The notes beneath the pieces are model-generated. The model worked only from the letters and a program-made list of their open reading frames with translations, had not been told where the DNA came from and did no database searches. The position numbers were made by a program, and so were the translations under genes. Positions 7,787 to 55,600 of a DNA stretch of 64,000 nucleotides are shown piece after piece (the first letter of the stretch is position 1; the number at the start of each line of letters is the position of its first letter). Source of the DNA: Mytilus galloprovincialis (taxonomy: Eukaryota; Mollusca; Bivalvia; Mytilida; Mytilidae); NCBI RefSeq assembly GCF_965363235.1, contig NC_134839.1:58805560-58869559 (forward strand), in the 5' to 3' direction.

Positions 7787-8886
7787 ACTTTGCTTTGTCA
7801 ATTTCGAGTAGCTCAGGTGTCTTCTGCAATTTTTATTTTACATTTTTATATCATTTGGTAATGTTTATTATTAAAAGCAACATAAATCATAATATATTGA
7901 AAAACATTTTAATTATTTTACAAAAAGAATGGATGATATTTAAGTTTACCTCATCCAAATTTTATGAAACTCATACACAATGCTAAGAACCACAACTCGC
8001 AGGCAGAATTCGAATTTGGACAGTGAGTCAATTACTGTTCTAAGAGTTATGGCCCTTAATGATGTAAAAATGGCAGTTTGAAATCAAATTCTGTTCTACC
8101 TACTACATTTTGAAATCAAATTTAATGTTGAACTTGGCCGACGACTATATGACGTTCACAGAAATGGGGGAGAAAAGCATGGTTTCACTTTGAGATGATC
8201 ATAGAAATTGGATGGATTTGATTCCAGGCGGGGTCATCCGTGTCCCATGGACATGTTTTTCAGTTTGTTATTTTTATATTTGCAGACAATGATTTAGTAT
8301 TACTGTTTCTGTGGTATTTTAAGCTAAATGAACATGTCTTTCCAATCTAGTTAAAACTAGGTCTTCTAATTGCTCCTATCTGTGGTTGCATGAAGATCTA
8401 GTGATATGTGTTAATGATCTTTTTGGACGTCTCTGGTTTTATCCTTTTCCCAAATCATGGAAACTGCAATTTCGTTGGTCAATGACAAAGGTCACTAGAA
8501 CAGAAAGTAGAATGGGGTTTCCCTTGATCTTCATGCAGCAACAAATGAGAGCAATTAGAAGCAGATTAAACAGATTGATATCTTTCCAAAGTTATTGGAC
8601 TATATTCTTTAGTAATGTGCATTTTTCCTTTAAGTGGAAATACATAGAATAATATTGGGGTTTGGAGTAGCATTTACTCATTGCAAAACTGTTTAATTTT
8701 ATATGTTTCTACTTATTCACCCTGGTAACATATTCGTGACAATTTTTATTCCCTAGACAACCTTTGTTATCAATTGAATGATTTAGTAATAATTTGTTAT
8801 CAATTGAATGTTCTAGCTTCTGGTCAGAAATATTTGTTATCAATTGAATGTTCTAACTTCTAGTCAGAAATATTTGTTATCAATAA
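7787..8886. other. Gene-free stretch
   Basis: No gene seen. Around 8760-8880 a motif 'tttgttatcaattgaatg' is repeated three to four times. The short ORF at 8386-8652 has no recognisable feature. Confidence 0.4.
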
Positions 8887-12962: not shown

Positions 12963-12983
12963 CTTTTGTCTTTACAAAATGAC

Positions 12984-13214
12984 AAAGTACCATCATATAA
13001 TGTCAAAGTACCATCATATAATGGCAAAGTACCATCGTATAATGTCAAAGTACCATCATATAATGTCAAAGTACCATCGTATAATGTCAAAGAACCATCA
13101 TATAATGTCAAAGTATCATCGTATAATGTCAAAGTACCATCATATAATGTCAAAGTACCATCGTATAATGTTAAAGTACCATCATATAATGTCAAAGTAC
13201 CATCGTATAATGTA
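12984..13214 (-). repeat. 21-bp minisatellite, 11 units (right array)
   Basis: Eleven units of aaagtaccatcatataatgtc, the reverse complement of the 7551-7786 unit. From the second unit on, 'catcat' and 'catcgt' variants alternate, giving a 42-bp higher-order unit. The right flank ('taacataaggcagttacggc') is the inverse of the left flank of the other array. Confidence 0.9.
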
Positions 13215-13497
13215 AGTTTTTAACATAAGGCAGTTACGGCGTTCCATAAATGTACGTATACAATCTACATCTTGATCGCTTCTCACAACCAAATCATACA
13301 GATGTCCACATTACAAATGTATATGTCAAGCTCTAAATTGTCCCAAGTCTATGAAAGTTACATTGTCGAAATGAGCATCTGGTGCAGGAAAATTTGTACC
13401 GTTAATGTTTTTATAAATAAAAGATGATAGTGAAATGAGATATTTAACCAAAGATAATCATTGGTGTTATTAATTTAAATTTCTGATTTATTTTCAG

Positions 13498-16400: not shown

Positions 16401-17615
16401 CAATCTCAATGAGACAACTACAAAACATGTAACCACCATAGCTCTAAGGTCAAAGATGTATTTAAAACAACATAGACATAATATTTGTCATGGCACAGCC
16501 TTCAAAATGAGTAAAATTGATATATCATATATATATTAGAAAATGTAAGCTAAGCTTTACAAAGCCCTGGGGAACCAAAAATAGAAAGTCATTGCGCTGA
16601 TCGAAGAAAAAAAAAATTGAACTAAAATGGGTTACAAAATATGAATCAAATTTGACTATAATCATGGTTACATGTATATAATTAGATGTATGTTTCATTA
16701 TTATGTGTTATTCTGATTGGCTACACTATAAGCTCGCGTTATTCCTTAACCAACTACATTTCACAATAAAATTTATTATTCATGATGACACAAGGTGGTC
16801 CCACAATAAAATGCACAGGTAAATTAAATAAAATCTTGATAAAAATCATGTTTTCATCATCCTAGCTAAAAAATGTAATTATAAGTATTGAATGCTTAAC
16901 TTCATAGGGTTGTATTCATAGGGTTGTAAAATCGTTGACCGTGCACACATTTTTAGGATGAAGCACTTCCACGCTTCATACAAAATGTACTTCAGTCAAC
17001 GCTTTTACACCCAAGTGAAGTTACAAAAAGAAGCATTCAATTCTAAAATACATATATAGAAGACAGGAAACAAAAAAAAACTACCAGTGAGAATAAATGG
17101 AAGGCCAATTTCTTCAAGTTAATGAAGTTTTGAATTAAAGAAAAATTAGAAATGTGATAAATATAAGAAATCATGCATTCCTGTTATGAACATTCTGTAT
17201 TTCATAATCTTTTCATTTTATTCATTTCAGGGCACATTTTGCAGAGGAGCTTGAAGCAGATAAACTTGTTCGATTCATTTTCAATGGTCAGGATCTAAGG
17301 AATGATGCTAACACACTACAAGCCTACAATATTGTTGACAATAGTGTAATACATTGTCTTATAACTCAAGTTAATCGCCAAAATACTACGTCTGGTGTAC
17401 AGAATGAAGATGAAGGATTTGATGTTGGCATGCTAATGCTTCCGTGTTTTGGAATCATTTTATGCTTTATGTGGTACCTAAGATTTGAATATCGTCAATT
17501 TTTTTCGGGGACATCAACTGTATGCTTGATAGGCATGTCTTTGCTTTATATAGCAGCTTTGTTGGCAATGATGGAGAATAGAAGAAGGGGACATCATCAT
17601 GCCCATGTGGATTAA
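13498..17615 (+). CDS. TMUB1: TMUB1/2-like transmembrane and ubiquitin-like domain protein
   Basis: Two coding exons: 13532-14349 (acceptor TTTTCAG at 13491-13497, donor AGAAG|GTATGA) and 17231-17615 (acceptor TTCATTTCAG), codon split 2+1, 400 residues. The start at 13532 gives MPLIEGVGDEVTV, nearly identical to the MALIEGVGDEVTV N-terminus I recall for vertebrate TMUB1; an in-frame ATG at 13511 would add seven residues. Order: membrane segment about 12-29; Ser/Asn/Glu-rich acidic linker about 50-245; ubiquitin-like domain about 247-319 (RIRLKYLND ... FIFNGQDLRNDANTL ... VIHCLITQ); two membrane helices about 339-358 and 367-387; His/Arg tail RRRGHHHAHVD. The linker is longer than in human TMUB1 (246 aa). 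Vertebrate relatives act at the ER and elsewhere as ubiquitin-like adaptors. TMUB1 and TMUB2 cannot be separated here. A 5' untranslated exon must lie upstream. Confidence 0.92.
14740..14960 (+). repeat. Diverged copy of the 9660-10335 repeat
   Basis: Within the TMUB intron. It keeps 'atgattgcaaatgagagcac', 'ataggtcactatatggcctt' and 'cacagtcagctatcac', clearly older than the tandem pair at 9660. Another remnant lies at 16380-16520. Confidence 0.65.
15335..16200 (-). repeat. Family R1 copy (inverted), with subrepeats
   Basis: Reverse orientation of the 37266-38999 family: 'gcggtcatacatgtatattg', a GTC microsatellite at 15385-15402, then degenerate subrepeats of about 160 bp with 'aaaggaaggttgggattgat' and 'gggccaaaaa'. 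Sits in the TMUB intron. The ORF at 15619-15912 comes from the subrepeats. Confidence 0.8.
16228..16336. mobile_element. Small hAT-like MITE remnant (CAG...CTG-type ends)
   Basis: Begins CAGGGGCAGATCCAGCC and ends GGATCCGCCAATG. The same family lies at 19836-19988 in opposite orientation. No target duplication remains visible. Confidence 0.5.
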
Positions 17616-28653: not shown

Positions 28654-31600
28654 TCATACAGTATTAATTTCTCCCATAATGTTCACATTCCTGTCTTTGT
28701 ATTTCTTTGATATTTCTATTTCCATCTGTAAAGAGAGCAATAAATAAGGTAAATTTAGTATTTATTGTGTGCTTTTGTCATGGCAATTGTCATTTGAAAT
28801 AGTATGGTTTTATGAAATGCTCAATACAAATAAAGATATTTTAAAGGAGTTTTTAAAAATGCAAGTTCTAACTATTATGCAATACTTATCCAATAGTATT
28901 TTTTTAATGATAAAAAACATCTGAATTTGATAGATATTTAAAATATTGGTACATTGTAAAATAAAAGAGTATTTATGTTACGACTTCATTTGAGAGTACA
29001 ACTATTGTATAATACAGTGAAAGGATCAGAATGGATTTTCTTTCAAATGATTACTGTAAATTCAGAAATTATTGCGATGTTTTTATTATTGCAAAAAATG
29101 CGACAGGGTAATAATAGCAATAATAATAAAAATTCACATTTTGAAATCTTTTATATGAATCAAACAGGATTTTTCCTGAACTAAGCAAAAATCAAAATCA
29201 TGTTTTAGTCTATAATGACAAAATCACAATATCAAATGCACCAATAATTTCTAAATCTACAGTAGAAAATATTTGGTATGCTCATTTATAAATATATTAG
29301 CCAATGTTTGCTATTGCCATTTTTTCTTCTGCTTTTCTAAATATTCCTTCTTTTTAAAGGTCTTTGAACTTTTTTTGATTGCCAAAAGAAATGCAGTATT
29401 TTACCTGTTTCTGCACTTCTCTTGTTTTCTTTATAATCAGGTCTAATTTAGGTTGTATTTCTGTCTGTTCTTGTATTGCTTCATCTCGCTTCACTACCAT
29501 TTCCTTTTCATGAAAAGTCATTTTATCTGCTAAAGTTAATATCTGTTTCAAATCATCTCTCAGTCTGTCTACATATCTGCAAAAATACCAAACAAATGAA
29601 GAGATAATCAATAATTAAAACATTGACATTTTACTGTTTCTATAAAAAAAATAGAACCTTCACTACTATAAATTATATGTTATGTTTTCTTCTGGACTTA
29701 TTTGACCCTGCATATTAACTACAAATTTTAAAAGATGTATGAAACAGTTTTAAAAAATCACAATTTTTAATCTGTCAGATTATGTCAATTATAGGTTTGG
29801 TGTGCAAGGATCCGGAAATTTTTTCACCTAATTTCAGTCATTTTCATATAACTTAAAAGTTGGTGCCCCTTTTCAAAAACATTGTCAAAATCTCATTACT
29901 GCATGAGTATGCTCATACTCGTAGCATCAACGAACTTGTTTCACTGTTGCATCGCATTTACTTCATGATTTATCCTACCATTTTCCTAAAATCGATCAAG
30001 AGCAATTAAGGGAAGGCAACAGTTTAAAAATAAAATGATTTTAATGACTCAAAATGATAATTTTCTCAGTCATAGCTTACGTTTCTTTTGATTCTGAAGT
30101 CGAAATTAAAACCGGATGTACTGCGATAATACTAAAACGAACAATTACGGACTCATTTCCGGGATTAGTTTTGTTGTTCAAATTCACAGGAAAACATCCG
30201 CTTTTTGATGTTTTACCTTTAATAATGTAAGAATATTAATGAAAATAGTTGCACTTGCTTTATTTAGCATGAAGCAATTTTAAATTTACGATTTAGTGTC
30301 AAATCTGCGGAAGAGAATTTCAGGCATGCGTATTATATAGTAAGGGAGCTACCATTTGATTTTTATGGGGGGGCTAGGATGAAAAATTTTGTCCTGCATT
30401 TTTTTTTAGTTGTAATCTCTGTCCTGCCTTTTTATTTTTCACTCTATTCGGTCCTGCCTTTTTTTTTTATTAGTTTATCCTGACTTTTTTTACCTAAATT
30501 GTCATCCTGCCTTTTTTTTTTGCAAAGTGTCTCATCCTGCCTTTTTTTTTTACTCAAAACTCCTGTCCTGCCTATTTTTTTCAAATTTCATCCTAGCCCC
30601 CCCCCATAAAAATCAAATGGTAGCTCCCTAAACAAAGCACGTGTGTTAGTAGTGAAAAAAATCTTTTTTCTATGTAAATTAAATCAAGTTTTAATTAAAT
30701 TTTAATCATAATTGATAATTGTCTTAGCTGAAAAGTAATTAAATAATGAAGACAGTTGGTATAATTTTAATTTCTTTATAATTTGGAGCTTGTGATTAAT
30801 AGTCCGGTGTGAATTAAAAACACAGGTAAAGAGATTAGCGATCATTAGCCAATAGCTCCCCGAGGCATTAATATAGTTATTAGGAGGGCCCTCAGGATTA
30901 TAACACTTTACTGGAGTGGCAGTTTAATTACATAAAATCGATAAGAAAACAAAACATGTTCAATATGGCGATTTTGAAACTCGATCTCAAGGAAATGACC
31001 GAAATTATTTCTGTTGAAAAATAAAATTTGACCTAAATCCCAATAAATGATTTAGGACTTTTGAGTTTCCGAATCGGTCATGTCTGGCATATATGACCGT
31101 TTCCGGACCCTTGTTGGTGTGTATTAACACAATTGGATATTGACATCATATTAATGATTTTTTGTTGTTGAAAAATTAAAGGATGAGCATTAAGCATAAC
31201 CACATAAAAATAATGACAGCATTCCTATTGCGTACTTTCCATTTCTTTGTAGGAACAATCCAGCATCATAAGATATATCTCCCAGTGTATTTGATATTCC
31301 AGAGCTTGCATTTCCCTATCATGATTTCTTTGATACAAGAATGCAGCTTATGAGGAAGATATTGAACCAAGTGTCATTTATTTCTTTGGCTTAAGCCATC
31401 TCGTGATAAAAGTTTACCAAAACCATCTTGATTTGATTGAATGTTATGGTATATCTGTATCACAGGTGATCATTGATATATTCCAATTGTTGTTGCCATT
31501 TGGTTGATGAAAACTAAAGTTGGAGAATGGAAACAAAACAATTAGATTTTTATTTGTTTATAAAGGGGCATAACTCAAGAGTGATGTCACCCAATTACAA

Positions 31601-34600
31601 ACTTGGTCTGCATTATATGTGATAATAAGCATTGTGTATAAGTTTCATAACAATTGGTTGAGGCAAACTAAAGTTAAAACTAAATGCCACGTCCCCTGCA
31701 GCGGGGGTAAAAAATGGTAACTTAAAATATACATTTCCCACATTATCCCTTTAATAGATATCGGTTATAGAAGTAAAATAAAATATTCATCTTATTATCC
31801 AAGTATAGAGACGCAGAAACTTAATTTTACCTTGGTGAGTTTCTTATCAACATTAAATGATGCATCTTCACAGTTGTCAATTGACTATGAATGTCCTTGA
31901 CCTTTATAAGCATGCCTTCTACTGTTTCCCTGGTTACTTGAAGTGACGATGGAGCTGACTGAAATTGACTGCTGGATAAAAAGTTTCCTTCTTCCTTCAT
32001 TTCTTCTAGCCTCTGAACCAAAAATGCTTCTACCTACAATATGTATAAACTCCTTTTTAAAAGTATAATTATTCAAGAATAAGATTATCACTGACGTTAA
32101 CCATAAAGAAATTTATTATCACAATTTATTTTGCGACATTTGCAAGTAGAGAAGTAACACAAATGTAAAGCGTAAACATATATAATCATGATTGATTTTT
32201 AGGTGTTTTAACGCCACTTCTAAGCACGGCATTTAGGCTGTTTCTCGGTGGCAAGTTTTTAATGGAGGAGGAAGAGGGAGTGCCAGGAGAAAACCACCGA
32301 CCCTTAATAGGAAAACGGACAATCCTAGTCAATTAAGACTGGAGTCGAATGCACCCGCAAGAGCGGGATTCAAACTTACAACCTCAGTGTTGACTGGATA
32401 GTGATTATAGTAGTAACTACTTAGACCACTCAGCCCCGAGACCCCTCACAATAAGAAAGTTCGCAAAATAAATACAGTAGTTGCGAAGTCATCCAGAAAG
32501 GTTCAAATGCTAAAAAAAGAATTTACAAAAAAAAGTTGGTTTACAGTGATAATAGTAATTTGCTCAGTTGTAAATATTTGTCACATAAAGTGTGACGCTT
32601 AATTATTGTTATTCTTTATGATTTTTTTCTACTGACAGACAGCTGTGACCATCAAATGCTTGATATGTTCAAACATCCACTTATAACCACCTCTGAAGTT
32701 ATTAGAACATCCTTAAAATATTTTGCGAATATGGACAATGATGGACTTATGTTGGTTGTTTTACCTCTAACAGATCATCTAAGAACATAGCTCTTGTTTT
32801 AGGATTATCTAATAATGATGTAGCATCTTCTCCTTTAGCCACTCCATCTTCTGTAAAATAAAAGAAAGTACATCTTATATACGTGACAGTATGTTGTGTA
32901 AAAGTTGCAAATGAATGCAACTCATTTGTGCAAGTAATCAGTATGTTGTCCAAAGTCAATAGCCTCTTGCCTTTGTTAGTCTTAAAATTGAGAATGGGAC
33001 TTGTATGTTTTTTAATTTTATCTTCTATCTTTCGGCTGCGTTGAAGACCCGTAGGTGGCCTTTGGCTGTTGTATATTTGGTCTGGTTGTTGTCTCTTTGA
33101 TGTATTCCCTATTTCCATTCCCAATTTTATGCTGTCTTTCATTTAGCTATAATTTTCAATTTTGCATGACTATGTAATTTTGCCTTATACATTACACAGA
33201 TATAGTTTTTATAAGGACATTGTAAGATATTTGGCAGATTTTCCTATTGAAATTTGTAATAGCAAAAAATTATTAATAGAATCTAACCAAATCTTCAGTC
33301 ATCATTTTCAGCTTCCAATTCATTCTAAAGAGAAGTGATCAAAGCTTAATAAGTTAGGTATTTGAATTAGTGAGTAAATTATTAAGCCGTATAGCGGGTT
33401 ATTTTTGCGGCTTTAAATTTTTCATTTAATAAGGTAAACAAAATATTTTGGTGGTTATTATTTTGGCGGATGCAAAAATTTTATCAATACCTTTGCATGT
33501 TCACTTTTAAATTAGCGGAATTTATTTTGGCAATTTTGTTCTATCTGCGAAAATTAGCGAAAATTTTCACCCTGCTAAAATAAACTGCTATACAGTATAT
33601 ATATGATCACTGTGTGTGTGTTACATACCTGCATGCTCCACAATAACCAGGTCACTATAGTCTATTCCATTACTGTCTTTGTCTGATTCTACTACACTGA
33701 AATCTATGGCATCCTACAAAGAAGTAGTTGCATCAGTTTGATATAAATACCCCACTTTTTCCCTACAAATACTACAAACATCTAGATGTGTCAATGCCCT
33801 CACTTACTTCCTACAAACCCCATATATATGTCAATTTCATATAAATAACTTCACTCATTGCCTACAAGGCCCATATATGTCAATTTGATATAAATGCACT
33901 CTCTTACTGCCTACAGAGAATTATATGTGTAGGTATGACTTAAATACCCTAACTCAGTAACTCCAAACAACAAGATATGTCAATTATTATCAATACCCTC
34001 ATAAACTGCCAACAAACAACTTATTGTGTCATTTTAATAATACCCTTATTCAATGCCCACAAACAACTGGCATTACAAAATATGTAAGACAGTTCAACAG
34101 ACCACACCACCATAAAATCCTACTCAATTTCAAGAAAATGAACATACTAAGAAAGACGAACACCAATGAACAAAACATGGTCCTTCTTTGGTACTGACAC
34201 AATAGATGGTTTAGCTAAACCAGTTTTATTTGTGTGTTCAAACCTCCCCCTTTTGTCTATTTACACCATGTCAAAAGTAAAACACACAATAACCAACCTG
34301 GACAGTGCATCTATAATTTTGGAAATAATTTGGAAAGTTATGAAAACAGAATTTGGAATTTCATAAATATGTCCAATGAATTACTTGTTTAATGTTTAAT
34401 AAAACAAAATAGAGTTATACTTTGAATAAGGGCTAATGCAGGGGAAATGTATAGTAGTGTTGAACAATATATGATATTTGTTTCTTTTATGTAATTAAGG
34501 TGGCAGAAAATCATTTCTGTTACATATGTCATAAGAGTTATGGATGTTTGGGTATAAACAAAGTGTTGTCCTAACTTCACCTCATATGTTTTTTCTTAGG

Positions 34601-37600
34601 AATAGCCATGAAAATGATAGATATTTACAGTCCTACCTGATTGTCTGTTCCCTCTTCATTTCCTCCTGTTTCTAACGTAATTTCAGACAAGTCTAAGTTT
34701 ATGTCATCAACAAAATCAATGTCAGCAATATTACCATCACCAGCACCCCAGTCAATCTACAGTACATCATAAAAACATTGGTTATATACTCAGAGATTAG
34801 CTCATTTTCAAAAATTATATGACCTTTCAAAGTTTACCAAATGAAAATGAGGAATTTTTATTGATAACTGTTTTCAAATATTTTTTAAAAGTTTGTTTTC
34901 TACATCATATATTTCATTCATATCCATTTTCTACATGTGGCAGCCCTTATCAAATCTTAGTTTGTGCAGCACTGCCTTCCATAGGTAAATATACTATCCT
35001 ACATCCAGAATTCTTGTACACTGCAGTAACACTCACTTAAACAGGATGATCTGTAACTCATGTGCCAACCACAGAAAAACTTGTTTTAAATGTGCCAAAC
35101 TTGGTTGCTTCAATATTACTAAACTAATATGTTGAAATGAATTTCTGAACTTCCATTTCATATGCATCATCAATGGAGACCACTACCTAACTTATTATTT
35201 TGGATAGTACTGAATTTTGATAATTGTGAAAACTATGACAGAATATGTCACTCAAAAATAGAAACGCCCTTTTAAAATTTAAAAGCATTATGTGTATGCT
35301 TTGGTTTCTTGAATTGGTCTCACATTTTGGTCAGTTGTTTAACAATGGAAATAATGCACAATTTTTTTTAAATTTGCAGTTCGTATTATATAAACAAATT
35401 ATCCAACACACTACAACAGATTGCACAAGATGAAGCCTTCAAACATTGACAACAATATAATAATCTGTTAGTTTTAAACATATTTTATTATACTGGATTG
35501 GGAAACAAGTTTAGCAACTTATATTAATCCCTTTCCACATTGTGGGTGCGAGTGCTGCCTTGTAGCCGCATTAGCTTGCTCTTTTTTTAAATCTACAAGG
35601 GTGTCTTTAACGTGCAAGAGATATGGCTCTCTCTTAATAATCTGTTGACACAGAGATGTCACATGTTCATGTAATTTTGATAGTATAATGCAAATGTTGA
35701 AATTAAATACCACTAACATATCATAATTGGCAGGACCAAATAAACTCCATGGAAATGAGATGTGCAAATGCCAATACACCTGCATACCAAATATCAGTGA
35801 CACACCACTAGTACTGTACTAGGGGTGTGGCCAAACAATCTTCATTGAAATCAGATGAGCATAATACATATCTAACTGAAAACCAAATATAGACCTACAT
35901 CTAGTATTTCTCAATAAACTGACTTAATTATCAACTTATACATTGTTTTTAAATAATTAAAATTTAACTGTTGAGAGTGAAGATATATGACATCTATCCA
36001 ATACATGATTTCATAGTGGTGGAATCTGCTTCTCTAATGATTTTTATCCTTCCTTTTCAAAGATTTGCAAAAGGTTGTTTTCTTTTATGTGACATGATCA
36101 GGCAAAGTCACCTTTTTTTTCAGGATGACACAATAAGAAATTCAGAAGAAATAAAGAAAATCTAATGTCATAATTAAATTTTGCCCAATCATTTGTGCAG
36201 AACAGATTTTTCACTAGTGACAAGAAGTATTTTTCTCACACTGTTCAAGAAATGTGAAAATAGCACAAAAATTAGAGAAAAATGATTCTTACATCTGCCG
36301 AGTCTGTTAGAAGATCCTGTTCATCTGTGGTGTCTATGAACAGTTTTGTACAGTCAATTTTCTCAGGTTTTGTTCCTGTCCGCCATTCATATGTTGTAGT
36401 ATTGCCATTTTTGATAATATGTTTTAACATCGGTAAATTATTTTCTCCAAGATCCCTACAAAGTATGAGTAGTAAAATGACTCTTACATATTATTTGTAA
36501 ATAGGTTTACCATCCATACAATACTGTATTAATTTTCAAGAAACAAGTAAAAAGTACAAATACTATGTAAAAATAAGACAAAAACAAGTGGCCCCTTTTC
36601 TCATATTTTAATGCTTGACTGAATATCTGAATATGATCAATTTTTTTTATAATTTTTTTTTTTTTTTATAAATATATCTGTCAAAAATAATTGATAATCG
36701 CTGAATTTTGAAATTGTCCCAGGACATTGCTGATATAAACCTTTGATAAAATTCAGGCAAGAATTGTACAAGTGACAGCACTTTCAATGCAATTGTCAAT
36801 ATAATTAATATTTTCAAGGAGATAACTTTTTTTTTATCAGGCACTCATTATCAAAGAAGGCATAGTCATATCTGATATAAACCTTTGATATAAATTTGAT
36901 AAAAATCTGCCAAGAATTGAACATGTGAGTGCTCTAACAAGACCAGATGGATGGACACCTGGTAATTCTGTGTCCCCTACAAAGCTTCAAGCAGGGAAAA
37001 AAGGTGCATAAGTACATTATGTGACAAAAACTGCATACTCATTTGTTAAAAATTGAACAAAATCTTTGTAGAAATCTGTTGCTAGCGTCAATCCACTCGT
37101 GGAATCACAAATTTTATCAAATGTTTTTGGTAGATCTTCAACAAGAGCAGCTAGCTCTGATTTGATTTTCTTTCCCTGAAAAACATCAAAGAAACATTTA
37201 ACAACAGATGTTTGTTTCTTAATTGATAATTTTATTACATAATCAGTCATATGATGTCATCTTAAATTAAACCAGATGCTCCGCAGGGCGCAGCTTTATA
37301 CGACCGCAGAGGTTGAACCCTGAACGGTTGGGGTAAGTATGGACACAACATTCAAGCTGGATTCAGCTCTAAATTTGGATTGTGATTAAACAGTTGACAC
37401 AGCATAGGTTTCTGACACATAATGAATGTGGTCTAATGAACTTAAATGTTTTTTTGCCTTTGAGCAATTCACTATGCTGTTGAATATTAATCCTCTCAAA
37501 AAAATGTTTGAAGAAATTTTCTTTTTATTTATGAAATCTGGAATGAAAAAAATTGAACCCCCCCCCCCCAATTTTTTTTTCACATCCCCCTTTCCCTTAT

Positions 37601-40600
37601 TCCAAAACTGATCTCAATTCAAATTTCTAATGGAGTTTGCAACAATAACTACTCATTTAAATACATATTAAAATGTAAAAAAAGTGCTTGTTATCACTGA
37701 ATGGTAAAGATTGTTTTAATTTATCAGTTGGTAGTAAAAGTGAATATACATTGTATATTGTATAAAGCAATGATTTAAGTTGATTCAACTACTATTCTGG
37801 ACAAAGAAAGATAACTCCAATTGAAAATATGAAAATTTCTTGCTATTGCACAATATTGTACAATTAGATATTTCTTGCTATTGCGCAATACTGTGCAATT
37901 GAAAATGTCTTGCTATTGCACAATACTGTGCAATTGAAGATTTCTTGCTATTGCTGAATACTGTCCAATTGAAAATTTCTTGCTATTGCACAATACTTAA
38001 TATAATAATTTTGGACCCCGATTTGGACCAACTTGAAAACTGGGCCAATAATCAAAAATCTAATTACATTTTTAGATTCAGCATATCAAAGAACCCCAAG
38101 GATTCAATTTTCGTTAAAATCAAACTAAGTTTAATTTTGGACCCTTTGGACCTTTATGTAGACCAATTTTAAAACGGGACCAAAAATTAAGAATCTACAT
38201 ACACAGTTAAATTCGGCATATCAAGGAACCCCAATTATTCAATTTTTGATGAAATCGAACAAAGTTTAATTTTGGACCCTTTGGGCCCCTTACTCCTAAA
38301 CTGTTGGGACCAAAACTCCCAAAATCAATCCCAACCTTCCTTTTATGGTCATAAACCTTGTGTTTAAATTTCATAGATTTCTATTTACTTATACTAAAGT
38401 TATGGTGCGAAAACCAAGAAAAATGCTTATTTGGACCCCTTTTTGGCCCCTAATTCCTAAACTGTTTGGACCTCAACTCCCAAAATCTATCCCAACCTTC
38501 CTTTTGTGGTCATAAACCTTGTGTTTAAATTTCATTGATTTCTATTTACTTATACTAAAGTTATTGTGCGAAAACCAAGAATAATGCTTATTTGGGCCCT
38601 TTTTTGGCCCCTAATTCCTAAACTGTTGAAACCAAAACTCCCAAAATCAATCCCAACCTTCCTTTTGTGGTCATAAACCTTGTGTCAAAATTTCATAGAT
38701 TTCTATTTACTTAAACTAAAGTTATAGTGCGAAAACCAAGAAAATGCTTATTTGGGCCCTTTTTGGCCCCTAATTCCTAAAATGTTGGGACCAAAACTCC
38801 CAAAATCATTCTCAACCTTCCTTTTGTGGTAATAAACCTTGTGTTAAAATTTCATAGATTTCTATTCACATTTACTAAAGTTAGAGTGCGAAAACTAAAA
38901 GTATTCGGACGACTAAGACGACGACGACATCGCAGACGGCGACGCCAACATCATACCAATATACGACCAAAAAATTTTCAATTTTTGCAGTCGTATAAAA
39001 ATATGGAGATTTAGTATAATTATCTTTTCATTAGTTTCATTTGCTTTTTTGGTTTAATAAGATTTTTTACCATTCCATAAAAGACCTTTTGATTTTGTTC
39101 CAATTACTCATATTTTTTTTGGGCTGTTTTTTTTTATTTTTGCAAGATGTCGCAAAAAAATAACACATCAAAACTGTAGATTTTTGGCATCACTGTAGAA
39201 TTAACTATTAATTTACATCAGAAATGATGTTGCATAATTCTAGAGTGGCTTATTATCTCCCTTATTTCATGATCTCTTTTCATTTAAACATGCATTTTTG
39301 AATCAGTGCAATATACCGTATACGGCCGTGTATTGTCCGCATTTGTGTATAGTCCGCACCCCCTCTTCATCCCCAAATATCGAGGAAAAAGTCTAGTTCG
39401 CTTGTATAGTCCGCGGCAACTTTTGACAAGATCGGGTCCGCGAACAATGACGGAAAATGTCGAATTTGCGGTATTTTTTTTTTTTTTTTTTGCCGAGATC
39501 GGCAATATAGTAAGTATTGTTGTTGAAAAGATAGATAGTCAGTTAAAACTTATGATAAGTTTTTTAATGGTATCTTTAAAGATATGTTTTCAATCTTTGT
39601 TAAAGACCGGCAACACAGTAATTATTGCTGTTAAAAGATCGATGATCAATATAAAGTTATGATCAGTTTGTAAAAGAAGACTTAAAAGATATGTATTTAA
39701 TCTATTTTAAAAGTTTTCAAAAGATTCTGTTTAATTGCTTAATTAAATCGTCTTTCAGACTATCATTCTTTAAATATTAATTTAAAGTCCCAAACAATGA
39801 AAGTAAGAACTGTATTCATGTAATAAATGTTAATTAATTCAATCATGTACATTTAACTATCGGCTTAAAACTTTTGATCTCATTGAAAGTGGTAGCTTGC
39901 CCAAGCCAATAAACTGTTTAAAATTCTAAAAATAAATATTTGGTATGCTATTAAACAAAAGATGTTCGATGTTTAAAACTTGATTAGAACTCATTAAAAT
40001 GTTACAACTCTTTAATCTTATCATTTCTTTTATTGATTTGAAGAACTGCCTCAGGTTATTGAATTACATTCATCACTTGTCAAAAGTTGACATGGTTAAT
40101 TAATTGCTTTACACACAAACCCGTAAACTCATTCATGTAAGACGATACACCTGCACAATGTGAACTTTCACCTGGAAATATAGTTTCGTATACAAAATTC
40201 CACTTCTTTCAGGTTTACACTTTCAGTATTAATGGTAACGATTTACAATTAAAAAATGTTAGGTCTTGATTTATTTACGTCGATAACTTAAGAGTTAAAC
40301 ACAAATAGTCGGAATACGAAAATTTTTGATACTTTAATCACACATTTTCAAAATGGCGGATCGTGGTTTACTTGTACTGTACACACGCGAATAACATTAA
40401 ACAAAATCGATCTTGGGAAGATTTCACTAGGTTTCAACTTGTCTATTATGGTTTTACCATTGAAGGGTTCATCTTTCATTGATATTCAGGATTCAGGTAC
40501 ACTGTTAAGATGCAATGACACAAATTTGACCAAATCCGAAACAAAGCGGACATTCGATCAAAGGCTGATTTTTATGCAAATTACTAAGTCAACACTGTTG

Positions 40601-43600
40601 GATTGTTTATTTTATTTAAAAAAAATAACAAAGAGTAGTCAAGAATACAGTTAGATTGTTTATTTTATTTCTAAATAATACAAAGAGTTGTCAAGAATAC
40701 ATTATAACATTGACAACACTTTGATGTTTCTGTTTACTTGGCCAAACCTCGTTCAACATCGTATCCCAACTCTGGAAAAAAATGTCATGAAATCCTATAG
40801 TACTGCATAGTCCGCACCCCTTCCATCAATTTCATTCCCAGGGTAAAAAACCGCGGACTATACACGCCTTTCTACGGTAAGCTTTGTTCTGATTACAGGG
40901 CTACTGATTTTCATTTTTTTTTTTGTCTTCAAAAGTAAAGTTGATTTGTGTGGAAAGACCTTTCTTGTTCAGAGAACAATTAGTTTTCAATTGAAATTAT
41001 TGCTATAATATGGCTCAATACATTGCTATGGCGGATAACAAAAATACACATCTGATATGCTGTTTTACCTGTATTCCAAGCTCCTTGCATTTAGAATCAT
41101 ACTTCTTTTTCAGGTCAGTGCATTTGGATGCATAATCTGCTTCTTTTCTGTCACACTCCTGAAAAAAATAATGGTAAATTGCATACACAATGGCTTTGGG
41201 ATTAGTAGATTATCTATATTCAAAACATAGGGTTAAAATTAATGTTGCTTATTTCTTTATTTGTCTCGCTAAGAGTTCAATCTTTTTCACAACATAAGCA
41301 TACTTTTTTTTTTCAATATTTTTCAGTGTAAATTTCAGGCACTGAGAATTTTCAATGTAAGTATGAGGTAAAACCTGTTGATTCAAACAACTACTGGCCA
41401 GCTGACATAGTTACAGTCAAACCTGTATTAAGCAGTCACTCATGGGAAGTATCAAAACTGATTGTTGGAGATAATATAAAATAAAATGCTTTGCCGAGTG
41501 CAGACTAATACCACTGCAGAGGTCGAACCCTGAACAGTTGGTGCAAGTTTGGACTTGCTACATCCTGGACTACACCGCTACTCCATACCGTATGAATCAA
41601 TAACTTTAATAATTTTTTGACACATTGTAAATTTGTACTTAATTTTGTATTTTCAGTTATTTACCACCTTTGGATTGGTACTAGAATAAAAGTCAGCACC
41701 TGATTCTTTATCTCTTTTTAAACCCAATCACAGTTTAAACTGACTGGTCGAGCCAGCACAGCATTGGAAGATTTCTTGCTATTGCGCAATACTGTGATTT
41801 AGCCCAATACTACATGTATGTGATTGAAGATTTCTTGCTATTGTGCATTTCTGTGCTAGAGCGCAATACTACATGTATGACTATGCAATTGAAGATTTCC
41901 TGCTATTGCAAAATACTTCTTATAATAATTTACACATCATGTTTGGTGTGTATCTCCTGCCATATACTGAATAGTTCATGACTTACAATCAATTTTAGTT
42001 GTAAGTTTTTTTGTTCATGACTACAATCAATCTGAGCCGTAAGTTTTTTTGTTCATGACTTAAGATCAATATCAGTCATAAATCTTTGTGAAACTTGAAT
42101 TCTGGATATTAAGCATCCATTCAAAGACTTTTAAAAGGTTAAATACACACAACATTGTTTAAAGAGACGCAGAAAAAAAACCCAAGCATGGAAGTTCCAT
42201 ATCCAGTTTTTTTGGAGTTTGTGTAGATGAATCTTTTGTTTTCTGCATAATATTTTGTGGATCAATTTCTGTCTTTTTTTTTTGGCCTTGGCTTTGTCCG
42301 TCTTTATTCAACTTCAGATTTTTGCACCCTTTATATATTCATCTTTTTTTTCAGACAACAAAAGAATGGATTACCGGTATATTTTTTTCATCTTAGTTTA
42401 TACTAAGATAAAATTGAGAATTATACTAAGAACCTATTACAAGTTCTAGAAAAAAAATGAAAATAAAATCCTTGCAATTTTCTTCTTATAACAGGTGATC
42501 GAGAATCTACATATTAATTGGATGAGGGCAATTTTCCTTTAAAAACAAATACCTTTTGTAATTGTTGACATTTTGAAATCTGCTTTTTCATAGCAGGTAT
42601 TTCATAGTTCACATTTCTGGCTAACATCTGTGCTGTTTCAGCTGAAATGTAATAAATCTTAATACACATGTACAACTTGAGGCAGCTTTAAAAATTTGTA
42701 TATACTATAAATTGAGAAACTATTGCTTACATTTATTATTGAGATTTTGTCATTTAAGACTCAAATAAGTTTTTTTTATTTTGCGATATTGAGAAAAATC
42801 CTGTTTACCAAATTTCAAAATGTGAATTTAAATTTTTGCGATTATGACCCTGTTGCATATATTGCAATAATTAGAACACTGCAATAATTTCTGAATTTAC
42901 AGTATAATGTAATGAGTTAATAAAACAGCCATCCAACAAGACCACAGAACAACAATCTAGAGGAGGGACAACAGTCTAGGTGCTGAATGCAAAACATGTC
43001 ACGTTGTACAATTTCAGCTTCCGTTTGGAATTTTTAAATATAGTAATAGATGGATTTGTGTGTTTTAAAATCAAATGCACTTTACTGCATTCATGCTTTC
43101 TCTGATACAATCTGAAAATCTAAGTGCTGAACTTTTAACAACAATTATAAATCTGAACATTCAAAGGGTACGGTATTTATCACAAAGGGTAAGGTATTTA
43201 TCACAAAGGGTACGGTATTTATCACAAAGGGTAAGGTATTTATCACAAAGGGTACGGTATTTATCACAAAGGGTAAGGATTTATCAGAAAGGGTACGGTA
43301 TTTATCTCAAACGGTACGGTATTTATCACAAAGGGTAGAGTATTCATTACAAAGGGTCTAAATTCAGAAATCATTTGTGAATCTATAATAGCATGATACA
43401 AACCTAAATAAACACCATCTGTTTCATACATCTTGATTATTTCCATCCAATCCTGTGAAAAATAAAAATACTCAATCATTTTTAGTTCTAACTTAACTTC
43501 TTCATATATATTTAGGACTTACAGGTGTGATGGGGATGCTCAAGTATGAATTACAGGTGAGATGGGGATGCTCAAGTGTGATAGTCTGTTCCCAAGTGTG

Positions 43601-46600
43601 TTGGTCTTGTAACTAATGCCAGATGACATGTGGAAAAGTTTCATTTGGTTTGAAATAAGACTTTTTGAGATATTGATCAAAGATGCACAATTATTATGAG
43701 AAGTACATTTTTTTAGTTTGTATATTAATTTGCACTGAACACTGTTTATCAGTAATTTCCCTGCTTTAGCAACTTATATTAAAGTTTCATCTATGCATTA
43801 AATGTAAATCTCTTTCAACAGTGTTTGCAACATTTGAAATGCAAGAATACAATGTATATTTCATATTATGTACATCCTTATTAGAGAGGTATCAACTAAG
43901 AAATGTGCCTCTTATAAAAGTATAATGGAATTCCTATTATTTTGAAGAGGTATGCATAATTTGACATGATATATCTTGAATTAGTTCATTGACTATTACA
44001 GCTCTTTCCTGTAGTAGCAGAAGGGCCAAACAGCTGTATTGCTTTCTACAGCACAACACTATCAGTATCATACATGCTGATCTAACCATATAAGGGCTGA
44101 TTTGGTTTTGTCATTTCATAAACTGTTATCACAGAGATATGTCTCGCCTTTTTGTAATTTTGATTATGCAAATGTTGAAATCAAAATAACAATACTTTAA
44201 CATCTTATAATTACACAAGTTATGCAAATATTCAAAGTCAATGAACCATGACTGAGTTACATGGCTCAACAATCTCCATGTAAATGAGATGTGCCAATGC
44301 TAATACAACTGTATACCAAATACCATTGACTTATTATAAGTCGTTCCCAAACCTAAATACAAACATTAACTTGTAAACTATGAAAAAGTTTCAAAGTCAA
44401 TCAACCATGAAGAGGGGTGGGGCTATATTTTCTCCATGGAAACGATAGTTGCAGATGCCAATGAATATGCATACCAACCATCATTGACTTAACATTAGAA
44501 GTTCATCTTAAACTGATCTAATCACAAACTAATATACATGTAAACTAAGATAAGTTTCAAATTAACATTGGCCTTCCACTAATGGTTGCCCTTGAACTGA
44601 CCTAATCACAAACTAAGACATGATAACTTTGAAAATTTTCAACGTCAATAGACCATGACTAAGGGCGTGGAGCCAAATTATCACCATGGAAATGAGATAT
44701 GCCAATGCGTATACAACTGCAAAACAAATATCATTGACCTACCACTTGTGGTTTCACATAAACTGACCTAATCACTAACTAATACATGTGAAATAAGGAA
44801 AAGTTTTGAAGTCAATAGACCATGACTAAAGGGGCAGGGCCAAATAATCTCCATGGAAATGAGATATGCCAATGCTTATACAACTGCATATTAAATATCA
44901 TTGACCTACCACTTGTGGTTCCACATAAACTGACCTAATTACAAACTAATACATGTAAATTAAGCAAAAGTTTCGAAGTCAATAGACCATGACTGAAGGG
45001 GCAGGGCCAAATAATCTCCATGGAAATGAGATGTGCCAATGCTTATACAACTGCATATTAAATAACATTGACCTACCACTTGTGGTTCCACATAAACTGA
45101 CCTAATTACAAACTAATACATGTAAATTAAGCAAAAGTTTCAAAGTCAATAGACCATGACTGAAGGGGCAGGGCCAAATAATCTCCATGGAAATGAGATA
45201 TGCCAATGCTTATACAACTGCATATTAAATATCATTGACCTACCACTTGTGGTTCCACATAAACTGACCTAATTACAAACTAATACATGTAAATTAAGCA
45301 AAAGTTTCGAAGTCAATAGACCATGACTGAAGGGGCAGGGCCAAATAATCTCCATCGAAATGAAATGTGCCAATGCTTATACAACTTCATACCAAATATG
45401 ATTGAGCTACCACTTCTGGTTCACCATAAACTAGACCTAATCACAAACTATTACATTGTTGACGCCTTCGTCGACACCTGTAACAGCATACCTATGTCTC
45501 GCTTTTTGACTCCGTCAAGGCAAGACAATAAAAAATTGTCTTATCCAAATCCATACTCACAATAACTTGAAGTTCCATTCAAACCATTAAAAGTTAGATA
45601 TAAGTATATCAATTTTGGAAAGCAAGATACAACCCAAATCACATGATTCCTTTAATTTCATAAAGTGATCTAAATAAGGTTTGTTCTTTAATTGTGTTAT
45701 TGTTCAATAAACTGCTTTTTTAAAAATAAAATCACTAAAAAATGTGTTGGCCATAACTGAGTTTTACAGGTCTTAGTTGGTTTTCCTATGCTCATTTTCA
45801 AGATTGGTCATCATAGATTCTAAATCAGAACTTTAATTTATTGGTTTAAATCACCTTCATTTTCTGTGAGGAGTACTGTCCAATCATATTCTTTTTTCCA
45901 AAGTCTGTGTCCTTCATTAACTCCACAATTTGTTGACAGTGAAAATAGTTTATATCTAGAAAAAAAAATCATTTTTAATGCTTTTTTCTATTAAAAATCT
46001 CATTTAATTTTTAGTCAAGATTTTGTAAACTAAACTAATTTTTCTAAAAACTAAACCTAATGTATTGAACATAATAAAGGATCAAAACTGTTTGAATTAT
46101 CTCTTGCTTTTAATTTAAAATCAGAATTTAAGAAAATAATGTATAAAATAACAAGAATGTGTCCATAGTATATGGATGACCCACTTTCACTTTCATTTTC
46201 TATGTTCAGTGGACCACGAAATTGGGGTAAAATCCCTTAATTTGGCTTTTCAATTTTAATATCATGTTATAGGGAACATGTGTACTCAGTTTTAAGTTCA
46301 AAAACTAACATTACCAAAAACTTTAACCCGAAGTTGGCCAGGTAAACAAACAGACAAACAGACAAGACAAAAAAATGTATGCTCAGACTGAAAAAACAAA
46401 ATTCCCCTCTTCTATCGTAGGTGGGGCATAAAATGGTAAAATAGAAGGGAAATTCTTTTTTTTTCAACAATTAACAGAATTAAAATTGGTTTATATAATT
46501 AGAAATAACCAGCTTATTATACAGTGTGGGTTGTTTATTGTTGAAGGCCATATGATGACCTTTGGTTGCTAGCTTTTACATCATTTGGTCTCTGGTGGTA

Positions 46601-49600: not shown

Positions 49601-52600
49601 AAGTGAATATACATTGTTTATTGTATAAAACAATAAAAAAAACTTCATCAGCAACATTTTATATTGGCAAATTTCCAATGAAGTTATTTACATAAAGTTA
49701 TTGGCAAATAAAAATAGAAAATGACATCATAGTCATGTCTGGCAAATTTCCAACATATATTATCAACTACTATTCTATACAAAGAAAGATAACTCCAATT
49801 GAAAATTAATTGCTATTGCACAATATTGTGCAATTAGATATTTCTTGCTATTGTGCAATACTGTGCAATTGAAAATTTCTTGCTATTGCACAATACTTGA
49901 TATGGAATCCTGATTTGGACCAACTTGAAAACTGGGCCCATAATCAAAAATCAAAGTACATATTTAGATAAAGCATATCAAATAAGCCCAAGAATTTAAT
50001 TTTTGTTAAAATCAAACTTAGTTTAATTTTGGACCCTTTGGACTTTAGTGTAAACCAATTTGAAAACAGGACCAAAAATGAAGAATCTTCATACACAGTT
50101 AGATTTGGTATATCAAAGAACCCCATTTATTCAATTTTTGATGAAATCAAACAAAGTTTAATTTTGGACCCCGATTTGGACCAACTTGAAAACTGGGCCA
50201 ATAATCAAGAATCTAAGTACATTTTTAGATTCAGCATATCAAAGAACCTAACTGATTCATTTTTTGTCAAAATCAAACTAAGTTTAATTTTGGACCCTTT
50301 GGACCTTAATGTAGACCAATTTGAAAACGGGACCAAAAGTTAAGAATCTACATACACAGTCATGACAGTTAGATTCGGCATATCAAAGAACCCCAATTAT
50401 TCAATTTTGATGAAATCAAACAAAGTTTAATTTTGGACCCTTTGGGCCCCTTATTCTGTTGGGACCAAAACTCCCAAAATCAATACCAACCTTCCTTTTA
50501 TGGTCATAAACCTTGTGTTTAAATTTCATAGATTTCTATTTACTTATACTAACGTTATGGTGCGAAAACCAAGAAAAATGCTTATTTGGGTCCCTTTTTG
50601 GCCCCTAATTCCTAAACTGTTGGGACCTAAACTCCCAAAATCAATACCAACCTTCCTTTTGTAGTCATTAACATTGTGTTTAAATTTCATTGATTTCTAT
50701 TTACTTAAACTAAAGTTATTGTGCGAAAACCAAGAATAATGCTTATTTGGGCCCTTTTTTGGCCCCTAATTCCTAAACTGTTGAAACCAAAACTCCCAAA
50801 ATCAATCCCAACCGTTCTTTTGTGGTCATAAACCTTGTGTCAAAATTTCATAGATTTCTATTAACTTAAACTAAAGTTATAGTGCGAAAACCAAGAAAAT
50901 GCTTATTTGGGCCCTTTTTGGCCCCTAATTCCTAAAATGTTGGGACCAAAACTCCCAAAATCAATACCAACCTTCCTTTTGTGGTCATAAACCTTGTGTT
51001 AAAATTTCATAGATTTCCATTCACTTTTACTAAAGTTAGAGTGCGAAAACTAAAAGTATTCGGACGACGACGACGCCGCCAACGTGATAGCAATATACGA
51101 CGAAAAATTTTTCAAATTTTGCGGTCGTATAAAAAGCCCAAGAATTCAATTTTTGTTAAAATCAAACTTAGTTTAATTTTGGACCCTTTGGACTTTAATG
51201 TAGACCAATTTGATAACGGGACCAAAAATTAAGAATCTACTTACACAGTTAGATTTGGCATATCAAAGAACCCCAATTATTCAATTTTTGATGAAATCAA
51301 ACAAAGTTTAATTTTGGACCCCGATTTGGACCAACTTGAAAACTGGGCCAATAATAAAAAATCTGAGTACATTTTTAGATTCAGCATATCAAAGAACCCC
51401 AAGGATTCAATTTTTGTTAAAATCAAACTAAGTTTAATTTTGGACCCTTTGGACCTTAATGTAGACCAATTTGAAAACGGGACCAAAAATTAAGAATCTA
51501 CATACACAGTTAGATTCGGCATATCAAAGAACCCCAATTATTCAATTTTTGATGAAATCAAACAAAGTTCAATTTTGGACCCTTTGGGCCCCTTATTCCT
51601 AAACTGTTGGGACCAAAACTCCCAAAATCAAACCCAACCTTCCTTTTATGGTCATAAACCTTGTGTTTAAATTTCATAGATTTCTATTTACTTATACTAA
51701 AGTTATTGTGGGAAAACCAAGAATAATGCTTATTTAGGCCCTTTTTTGGCCCCTAATTCCTAAACTGTAGGAACCATAACTCCCAAAATCAATCCCAACC
51801 TTTCTTTTGTAGTCATAAACCTTGTGTCAAAATTTCATAGATTTCTATTCACTTAAACTAAAGTTATAGTGCGAAAACCAAGAAAATGCTTATTTGGGCC
51901 CTTTTTGGCCCCTAATTCCTAAAATGTTGGGACCAAAACTCCCAAAATCAATCCCAACCTTCCTTTTGTGGTCATAAACCTTGTGTTAAAATTTCATTGA
52001 TTTCTATTCACTTTTACTAAAGTTAGAGTGCGAAAACTAAAAGTATTCGGACGACGACGACAACGCAAGACGACGACGACGCCAACGTGATAGCAATATA
52101 CGACGAAAAATTAAAATTTTTGCGGTCGTATAAAAATGATATGGGATGTACATGGTTCTTGTAAAATCATTTTTTGTACCTCTCACCCATTTTCTCAAGA
52201 TTTTGGCTAAAAATACAGACTTGATTGGTGATAAAATTTGAAAACTGGATTACTCAAAAACCATTCATTGTAAATACACAATTTTTCACAGAAATATGTT
52301 TGATTATAATATTTTTAAAATTCATTGATATTTTCCACTTGTATCACATGTTTTGGAAATATTTCAAGAACGAGATTTCAACGAGACTGAACGAGACTGA
52401 AAAGTCAGAAGAATACATAAAACAGGTCATGAAAACTACTTACAAGACCCCTGTAATAGCTGTGTGATTTACTAACAAGACCCCTGTAATAGCTGTGTGA
52501 TTTACTAACAAGACCCCTGTAATACCTATGTAATTAACTTACAAGACCCCTGTAATAGCTGTGTGATTTACTAACAAGACCCCTGTAATAGCTGTGTAAT

Positions 52601-55600
52601 TAATTTACAAGACTCCTGTAATAGCTGTGTGATTTACTTACAAGACCCCTGTAATAGCTGTGTGATTTACTTACAAGAACCCTGAAATTGCTGTGTGATT
52701 TATTTACAAGACCCCTGTAATAGCTGTGTGATTAACTTACAAGACCCCTGTAATATCTGTGTGATTTACTTACAAGACCCCTGTAATAGCTATGTGATTT
52801 ACTTACAAGACCCCTGTAACAGCTGTGTGATTTACTTACAAGACCCCTGTAATAGCTGTGTGATTTACTTACAAGACCCCTGTAATAGTTGTGTGATTTC
52901 TGTAACAGGAGGCATATCCTGTATTGCTGTGTTTATTTTCTCTCTGATTTGAGCTGCTGTCTTTTGCCATTGTTGGTCACAGTGTCTTCTGTTTATCAGC
53001 CAATCTGTGAATATAGGAATAGTTCAAACAGATTATTTAATAAAATATAAAACATGGCCTTCTAAAAAAAAAAGCTATTTGGTAGGATCCATTTCTAACG
53101 CATACACATTTTAGACCTATGGTATTTTAAATTGAGACTTTGAAAAATGAAGTCAAGGTAAAAGGTCAATTTGATGCTCTGGTTGAAAAACATCTATGCA
53201 CTAGGTTAGAAGACATACATTGTTATCTGACCTTCCAAAAGGTCAACAGGTATTAATCATGTTTAAAAGGGAAGAAGCCATTTTTGCATTTTTATCATGA
53301 ATGTAAAGATGCCTAAAACCAATATATTTTCAGAATCAGTTTGAAAAAACATATCATATGAAATTTTTCACTGATATTTGGAAAACCAATAGAAGCAAAT
53401 GATCTCCCTTTACTTATTACATCTTAAGTATGTAGTCAATGGTACAAAAATGTAGTAACCATATATTTTTTTAATAATTGTAATAATTTTAAGCTTTCAT
53501 TTCAGAGGTATTTTTTACACCAGAAGTTGCCTTCAAACAAAACACTACAAAATTTATTACATTCTTTACAGTTTACACCAAGGTTGGGCGGTAAATACCG
53601 CCCCCGGTATTTACCAGTGGTATTTACTGGTATTTACCGCCCCGAATAATACTCCCCAAGTGGTCAATACTGGCAAATACTGGTCGATTGAAATTTTCAT
53701 GGTTGTTTTTACTATTAATTGAAGTAAAAACATAATAAAAAGTCAAATAAATTTAAACCGATGCATTACGTTTGCGCGCATTACCATTACATTTGCGCGC
53801 AAAAATCATAACGTTTGCGCGCAGCTTTTGCTTACATTTGCGCGCATTTTTTTTTGACAGGTAAACTCAGGTAAAATACAGGTCATAATACTTTATTATT
53901 ATTAATTTGTTCAATTATTTACAAGTATCAGTACCCTTTCCGTTAGTCTAAGTCTCCTAAGGTACCTATTTTGAAAGAATTCAATCAATAATATTTTAGG
54001 GAAAATACAGGTCATAATACTTATTTATTTATCAATTTGTTCAATCATTTACAATTATCAGTACCCCTTCCGTTAGTCTAAGTCTCTTTTTAGGCAGGGA
54101 AAAAAGGAGATAAAGCCGCATTTTTTTCGATTTTCAGATACAATTCAACAAGTCAAAGGTGTAGACAAAAGTTTAAAAAATCTGTGACATAGCCCATTTA
54201 TCATAACTTGAACTTAAGATATAACGGGGTTTTAAATTGATTTTAGAATTCAATATGAACAATTATATAATTTGAATTAACAAACTATTTTCAAAATTAA
54301 TAATTAATAGTCATATCGATTATGAAAATACCAATAAAGTACAGTCATTTATAATTTAATATATATGAATTATAATTTTTACCTGAGATTACCTGTAAAA
54401 TGAATGCGCGCAAATATAATCAAAAGCTGCGCGCAAACGTAAAATATTTTAATCCTCAAATGCGCGCAAACGTAGTGCGCCCATTTAAACTTTAATCTTT
54501 ATGCAAATGTCAGCTTATATAAATTAATGAATTTGATATGTTTTATTCATTTATAACACTAATTCCTACTAATTTAAAATTTAGTTATAATGAATTATGA
54601 TATAACATACTTTAGATATATAAAAATTTACATATTATTTCAACATTTATAAATCAATATATAATTTTTAATTCAAAAAATATGATTTTACAGGTAATTA
54701 AAAGTAAAGGTAAATTAAAGTACAGGTAAATGAAGTTACATGCATCTTTTTACCTTTTACCTGGCATTTCTAGGTGTGAAAAATTAATTACTAAAACAAC
54801 AGCCCCCAATAAATGTTGACAATACATGGGTTGAAAGTAATAAAAGTGATATTTGAAGACTCCCTTAAACAATAAAATAGTTCCTGTCTATTTAACTGTG
54901 AGACAAAATCCTTCTTCATGCTGAAAATGGAAAGTTTGAAGCTGCTGGGGGACAAAACAGTTTTTATCTTTTACTATAATATTATTTATACTCATACAAT
55001 CAATGTAGATCACTGTTTCTTCAAAGAATTTACATGAGAAATAGAAATGAAAGCCATTAAACATGTTTAAAATGATTTGAACACTTAATTAATAGTAATT
55101 GACCAGGTAGAGAGTGGTTTCTATAGTAATGACCACTCAAAATTTCAATCGACCAGTATTTCCCGGTATTTGCCAGTATTTCCCGGTATTTACCGGTAAT
55201 CACCACTGGCATGGTCAATACTAGTATTGACCATATTGACCGCTTTTTTGCCAACCTTTAGTTTACACCAGTAAATAGTTATCAAAGGTACCAGGATTAC
55301 AATTTAATACGCCAGAAGTGTGTTTCGTCTACATAAGACTCACCAGTGATGCTCAGATCTAAATATTTATAAAGCCAAACAAGTACATATACAAAGTGGA
55401 AGAGCATTGAGGACCAAAAATTCTAAAAAGATGTGACAAATACGGCTAAGGTTATCTATTCCTGGGATTATAATTGATATTCATGTCAACACCGAAGTGT
55501 TGAATAAAATGTTGAACTCTGTAAAATACAGGAAAATAGAAAAAAAATAAAAATGTATTCATAATTTTGCTTTAGATACTGTTTTTTATATAACATAAAA

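Follow-up and report, generated by a model that had tools for sequence, protein, structure and literature searches.

A minisatellite has copied a splice donor of CDK5RAP3 in the mussel Mytilus galloprovincialis: probably a tolerated by-product of repeat expansion

What does it mean for a gene when a minisatellite copies one of its splice donors over and over into the intron that follows? The question is raised by a 64,000-nt stretch of the Mytilus galloprovincialis genome (NC_134839.1:58,805,560-58,869,559, forward strand; hereafter the window, whose own positions serve as coordinates below), in which a 33-letter segment that covers the end of the second coding exon of CDK5RAP3 recurs some twelve times in the intron that follows, an observation that is confirmed here. 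We hold with reasonable confidence that the array is a mirage, the name given to minisatellite-like tandem duplications of exon-intron boundaries in the amphioxus globins BflGb6 and BflGb9 (PMC3087553; the facts on amphioxus mirages used in this paper come from that report and from PMC3902484). Under this reading, it arose by tandem duplication of 33 bp over the boundary and is a nearly neutral passenger in a gene that uses its native donor. The array is thus probably a tolerated by-product of repeat expansion, not a switch. For CDK5RAP3 itself it is probably ordinary; the unexpected wider point is that exon-end arrays may be frequent in this mussel.

Tandem repeats were called with Tandem Repeats Finder (TRF), which reports at 52437-52899 of the window an array of period 33 with 14.0 copies and 91% matches. 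The first array copy is the end of exon 2, ATCACACAACTATTACAGGGGTCTT. The repeat unit consists of GTAAGTAA plus the last 25 bases of exon 2, and there are 13 full intronic units; the first base of the intron is 52872, where the native donor GTAAGTAA starts. Over the 25 exon bases, the exonic copy and the intronic consensus disagree at just one (CAA for CAG, a synonymous change), and units 0-12 depart from the consensus at 19 bases in total, with 0 to 4 differences per unit. When a 21-base core of the unit was searched with up to three mismatches, 14 matches were found in the window against 0.00 expected, so the register of the array is not due to chance. A sequence-only reading of this DNA had proposed that a minisatellite multiplied the donor about 13-fold, that its 33-bp unit holds the end of exon 2 together with the donor, and that the exon ends inside the first unit. 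The TRF call and the register confirm all three, with 14 sites in register and 13 of them beyond the native one. The same reading spoke of near-identical donors. GT is kept at all 14 register positions; the description is right for the nine sites that read GTAAGT and fails for the other five, two of which read GTAAAT and three GTTAGT (among the 13 extra sites, 8, 2 and 3, respectively).

The array is peculiar to this place in the genome. All genome-wide searches were made on one assembly of 1.385 Gb in 331 contigs, of which C2 contains the window. Exact copies of the 21-base core number seven in the whole assembly, all of them in the array, and the array as a whole has a single match, namely itself. 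A dispersed repeat family as the source of the unit was rejected, as neither the core search nor the whole-array search found a further copy in the genome. It is very improbable that the array, or its length, is an assembler error: repeats are error-prone and the assembly is a single one, but several units have variants of their own and the locus occurs only once.

The identity of the host gene is secure. When exons 2-13 are joined, the product matches Pfam PF05600 over positions 15-502 of 502, nearly the full family profile (7.5e-161), and PDB chains named CDK5 regulatory subunit-associated protein 3 (about 1e-121), which upholds the name that the sequence-only reading had given to the gene. 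The gene occupies 55858-28654 of the minus strand. Both ends were located for 12 of the 13 coding exons placed; for E9, which starts at 34756, the 3′ end is not fixed. In a genome search with the protein of exons 2-13, all 11 matches listed fall on this locus. Since the exons are readable throughout and the gene is found at one locus, its coding capacity has been kept.

Each donor of the row was then joined to exon 3 (from 45955) and translated. Only donor 0 yields the full-length protein, and its junction with exon 3 agrees with that of the known protein: it reads ...LLQGSYINYFHC..., resembling ...LLSGSYIHYFHC... of the PDB chain, with GSYINYFHC in the mussel product against GSYIHYFHC in that chain. 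With donors 1-13, exon 2 grows to 165-561 nt and every product stops after residue 68 (...QGSCK, then the stop). The stop lies 25 to 421 nt upstream of the exon 2-exon 3 junction, and also upstream of the later junctions. The claim that full-length protein comes from the first donor only is therefore correct, all 13 later donors truncating at the same residue. The related claim that each added copy is an 11-codon block ending in a stop applies to most units; in units 4, 8 and 10 the stop fails at that codon, which is immaterial because the first unit already has one. The intron is in phase 1, in which GTAAGTAA is read as (T)GT AAG TAA. Since a phase-1 GTAAGTAA donor spells a stop by itself, the stop is no designed feature.

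By U1 duplex energy, 6 of the 13 extra donors equal the native site at -7.0 kcal/mol, and the donors of E1, E4, E6 and E12 outscore the native exon 2 donor, whose modest score we put down to its poorly pairing exon side (CTT). Such a row could leave the allele partly unproductive without any selection, if a preference for intron-proximal sites sent many transcripts to the last copies at the price of a mild load. The last donor copy, which starts at 52443, would however give a 561-nt exon, a length that is unlikely under exon definition, and the gene is otherwise readable. On the other side, this last copy is again as strong as the native donor by U1 duplex energy, and the choice between competing donors is reported to shift with SRSF1 and hnRNP A1 (PMC5585400). 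Altogether, we regard a partly unproductive allele as decidedly unlikely.

In the reading that we favour, 33 bp spanning the exon-intron boundary were duplicated repeatedly in tandem in a genome rich in minisatellites. The exon-side donor would be chosen since it bounds an exon of normal size (132 nt) with other signals upstream, and the 13 later donors would mostly be ignored; transcripts that do use a later donor would stop after residue 68 and then be removed by nonsense-mediated decay. The array would accordingly persist as a near-neutral passenger at a slight cost in splicing noise, probably one among many in the genome and not peculiar to this gene. Shown here are the array itself, the register of its units, a gene that can be read through, and the coding outcome of every donor. 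Copy-number polymorphism of the array is plausible, given the differences in length reported for amphioxus mirages (PMC3087553) and the 27-bp intronic minisatellite reported to be polymorphic in abalone (PMC6905558).

The sequence-only reading had also suggested two functions, a length-dependent brake on expression and a decoy for the U1 small nuclear ribonucleoprotein. A selected brake would mean that use of the later donors rises with copy number, and that the stop and subsequent decay lower the output of CDK5RAP3. It could draw on the truncation after 68 residues from all later donors, on the 8 of 13 extra donors that retain GTAAGT, and on the 6 of 13 that match the native duplex energy. 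However, variation among units is no lower in the donor bases than in the remainder of the unit, and may be higher: changes are seen at 8 of 104 donor positions and at 11 of 325 other positions, with the donors the more often changed (Fisher p 0.095). Distal units share variants, such as GTTAGT in three of them, so that the events are not independent and the test is only indicative. There is no sign of purifying selection on the donor copies, and selection on the donors is unsupported, their bases not being conserved among units. The stop, moreover, follows from the phase and the bases of the donor. We found three other mirage units in this genome (67, 53 and 47 bp, see below), none of them a multiple of three, so the 33-bp period of CDK5RAP3 needs no explanation by reading frame. 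In addition, the amphioxus precedents are reported to splice normally, the data suggesting that regular splicing is undisturbed (PMC3087553, PMC3902484). The U1 decoy is likewise unsupported. A brake function for the array is unsupported, as nothing tested points to one, and we consider it unlikely.

RNA structure offers a different route by which the array might matter, namely by burying the native donor and so tuning its use. The region does fold better than its shuffles: z is -2.80 over 180 nt, where 2 of 200 shuffles did as well, and -4.84 over 655 nt, where 0 of only 20 did. Among the eleven donors of the gene that were scored (the E9 donor being unplaced), the native one is predicted to be the least exposed, at 0.13, the others ranging from 0.21 to 1.0. 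Repeats of one unit, however, fold well by construction. The inverted repeat in the CDK5RAP3 unit is not beyond chance, since 122 of 200 shuffles have one at least as long. Most directly, the low exposure does not come from the array, as the predicted value is 0.14 when the array units are absent and 0.13 when all 13 are present. Structural gating of the native donor by the array was therefore rejected and strikes us as hardly credible, and the same insensitivity to copy number speaks against the length-dependent brake. A hairpin-prone unit as the cause of expansion was also rejected, as in the four units tested 122, 122, 40 and 200 of 200 shuffles were at least as good.

To see whether the array stands alone in this genome, a sample of other exons was examined. 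It comprised 62 exon matches in short open frames, 33 to the myosin head and 29 to kinases, hand-picked from hit lists before their sequence was viewed and regardless of repeats. Arrays that copy the exon end were found at three of the 62 (4.8%, exact interval 1.0-13.5%). An RSK-like kinase exon, with ribosomal protein S6 kinase alpha-6 as its best PDB match (L118, G000:C10:19015850-19016638), has a 67-bp unit with GGTAAGTTGG, in the context ...GTTCTTATG/GTAAGTTGG (the slash marking the splice point), in at least 5.5 copies. A second kinase exon, matching Pfam Pkinase and PDB kinases (L116, G000:C10:60642364-60643245), has a 53-bp unit with GGTAAG, in the context ...GGAACCACAG/GTAAGAG, in 3.3 copies. 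The third is a myosin exon (L084, G000:C9:57310997-57311788) whose end was placed from a protein alignment; its 47-bp unit is present in 3.1 copies with 77% matches and decayed donor positions. A fourth donor-side row, of 18 bp with 2.0 copies and a score of 49 (L135), was left uncounted, as were rows of two copies that lie within or close to the matches of L080, L091 and L104 and are not exon-end arrays. Thirty Helicase_C loci (L050-L079) showed no array within 60 bp of the match; they were excluded from the 3 of 62, as many are long single-frame open reading frames with little information on exon ends. Tandem repeats cover 14.6% of the window when all TRF rows are counted, and 3.0% when only periods of 10-100 with at least three copies are. 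The 4.8% share is of the same order, and therefore mirages may be common in the mussel.

Substantial arrays (TRF score of at least 100) were also compared between the two flanks of 38 loci among L080-L119, with L085 and L108, which have two matches each, left out. They lie on the donor side in six of these loci and on the acceptor side in none (sign test p 0.03). Minisatellites may prefer the donor side of introns or be tolerated there. This bias is suggestive only, and within 300 bp of the CDK5RAP3 exons two arrays stand on the donor side and one on the acceptor side. Genome-wide, GTAAGT triplets number 10,976 against 16,558 in a reversed control, and AGGTAAGT triplets 281 against 406, with 39,604 against 72,798 single sites; per single site, AGGTAAGT is slightly ahead (281/39,604 = 0.71% against 406/72,798 = 0.56%). 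Word matches overlap within arrays, and these counts read as no clear excess, which fits arrays that form wherever minisatellites form. Two further arrays, at G000:C2:7981163-7981587 and G000:C1:118398197-118398276, have units with both an acceptor-like and a donor-like signal (TACAG..AGGTAAGT in one form, and CTACAG followed directly by GTAAGT in the other), and so form rows of micro-exon-like or zero-length splice units.

Several points weigh against the view of the array as a passenger that is common in kind. Use of the first donor is deduced from protein conservation alone. SRSF1 is reported to be able to favour an intron-proximal donor (PMC5585400), which would here be a poison donor. GT is intact at all 14 sites, although 0 changes in 26 positions of units 0-12 is weak evidence at this divergence. 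The sampled exon ends are ends of hidden Markov model matches and do not come from transcripts. Finally, the word counts leave an excess of donor-bearing arrays unsettled, totals being lower than in the control and the per-site rate slightly higher. With these points taken into account, we still prefer the near-neutral mirage for CDK5RAP3. That mirages are common genome-wide, with about one in twenty internal exons ending in a minisatellite of its own donor, and on the donor rather than the acceptor side, is a tentative proposal that we would sooner doubt than assert; it draws on three cases in a hand-picked sample of 62.

Should that proposal be true, decoy donors in unstable rows would be present in thousands of genes, including those of RSK-like kinases, myosins and CDK5RAP3, and mirages would be a standing source of individual variation in splicing as well as raw material for new introns. 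If they are frequent in mussels, the mirages described in the lancelet would be a general outcome of a high minisatellite load, with relevance to splicing noise, errors in gene models and intron gain in molluscs. Natural rows of near-identical donors are also a ready-made experiment on how the spliceosome chooses among equal sites, for which variation in array length, if it exists, would supply a dose series.

The features of the locus are collected below.

Table 1. CDK5RAP3 exons and the donor array in the window (slash, splice point)
Feature	Positions	Strand	Basis
CDK5RAP3 coding exon 1, with start codon	55792..55858	-	sequence
CDK5RAP3 coding exon 2, 132 nt, 3′ end inside first repeat unit	52873..53004	-	sequence, protein identity
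33-bp minisatellite (mirage-type), 14 TRF copies, first copy = end of coding exon 2	52437..52899	-	TRF, register
Native splice donor GTAAGT (CTT/GTAAGTAA), sole full-length donor of the row	52867..52872	-	
13 extra donor-like sites, one every 33 bp, starting at 52839, 52806 ... 52443	52438..52839	-	
CDK5RAP3 coding exon 3, whose acceptor pairs with the donor row across a 6.9-kb intron	45855..45955	-	
CDK5RAP3 coding exons 4-13	28654..43452	-	joined exons 2-13 match PF05600
E4	43452-43404	-	
E5	42641-42553	-	
E6	41158-41069	-	
E7	37175-37039	-	
E8	36455-36293	-	
E9, 3′ end not fixed	from 34756	-	
E10	32850-32765	-	
E11	32033-31831	-	
E12	29576-29405	-	
E13	28725-28654	-	

Other repeats accompany the gene. 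A 21-bp array of 9.4 copies (43162-43357) starts 47 bp past exon 4 and does not copy the exon end. Two CDK5RAP3 introns hold repeats of 135 and 161 bp (38026-38895 and 49912-52037) whose consensus sequences look similar by eye, the second block lying 400 bp downstream of the donor array. Elsewhere in the window, two 21-bp minisatellites about 5 kb apart (7550-7788 and 12978-13213) have consensus sequences that are, by eye, reverse complements of each other bar one base. On the plus strand, an exon at 17208-17615 encodes a ubiquitin-like stretch (Pfam ubiquitin, 5.1e-07) followed by hydrophobic segments; we take it to resemble TMUB1/2, and an open reading frame at 13487-14368 may belong to the same gene. 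A minus-strand frame at 62290-63015 matches Retrotrans_gag (3.9e-07).

Among the papers listed by literature searches aimed at mollusc and bivalve cases, there was no report of a mollusc mirage, which is not proof of absence. A second precedent is human IFI6, with a minisatellite unit of 12 bp. Its units are described as carrying splice donors at an exon end, and three mRNA species are reported, owing to use of two donors in the downstream repeats (PMC4526556; the original 1995 paper is also cited in PMC2572611). The CDK5RAP3 minisatellite likewise has units with splice donors at an exon end; unlike those of IFI6, its later donors are predicted to give truncation, with 13 of 13 stopping after 68 residues where IFI6-type isoforms would be in frame and translatable. 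A regulated poison-exon extension would have a conserved alternative donor, itself regulated, whose use brings in a premature stop; here use of the later donors would bring in such a stop, and the donor bases are not conserved among units. A further comparison is with the Rogers model, in which introns are gained by tandem duplication of segments containing AG/GT (as presented in PMC3087553), and for which a case of intron gain by tandem duplication is reported in potato (PMC4974935). As in that model, splice signals copied in tandem could become the starting point of a new exon or intron; unlike it, the mussel locus shows no evident new intron or exon, and on inspection its units have no convincing pyrimidine tract before ACAG.

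The closest match remains with amphioxus. There, Adh3 is given as an earlier case, with units of 10-72 bp, and mirages are reported to differ in length between haplotypes, their copies being considered by the authors as possible cryptic sites (PMC3087553); PGBD5 and troponin C are described as further hosts (PMC3902484). The mussel array differs in its host, in lying on the donor side, in its 33-bp unit with 13 extra copies and in the one early stop common to all of them. Its anatomy is nevertheless that of a mirage, with boundary-spanning units, GT at 14 of 14 sites and GTAAGT at 9 of 14: like the amphioxus arrays, it has short tandem units over an exon-intron boundary, splice signals in many of those units, and a host gene that is still readable.

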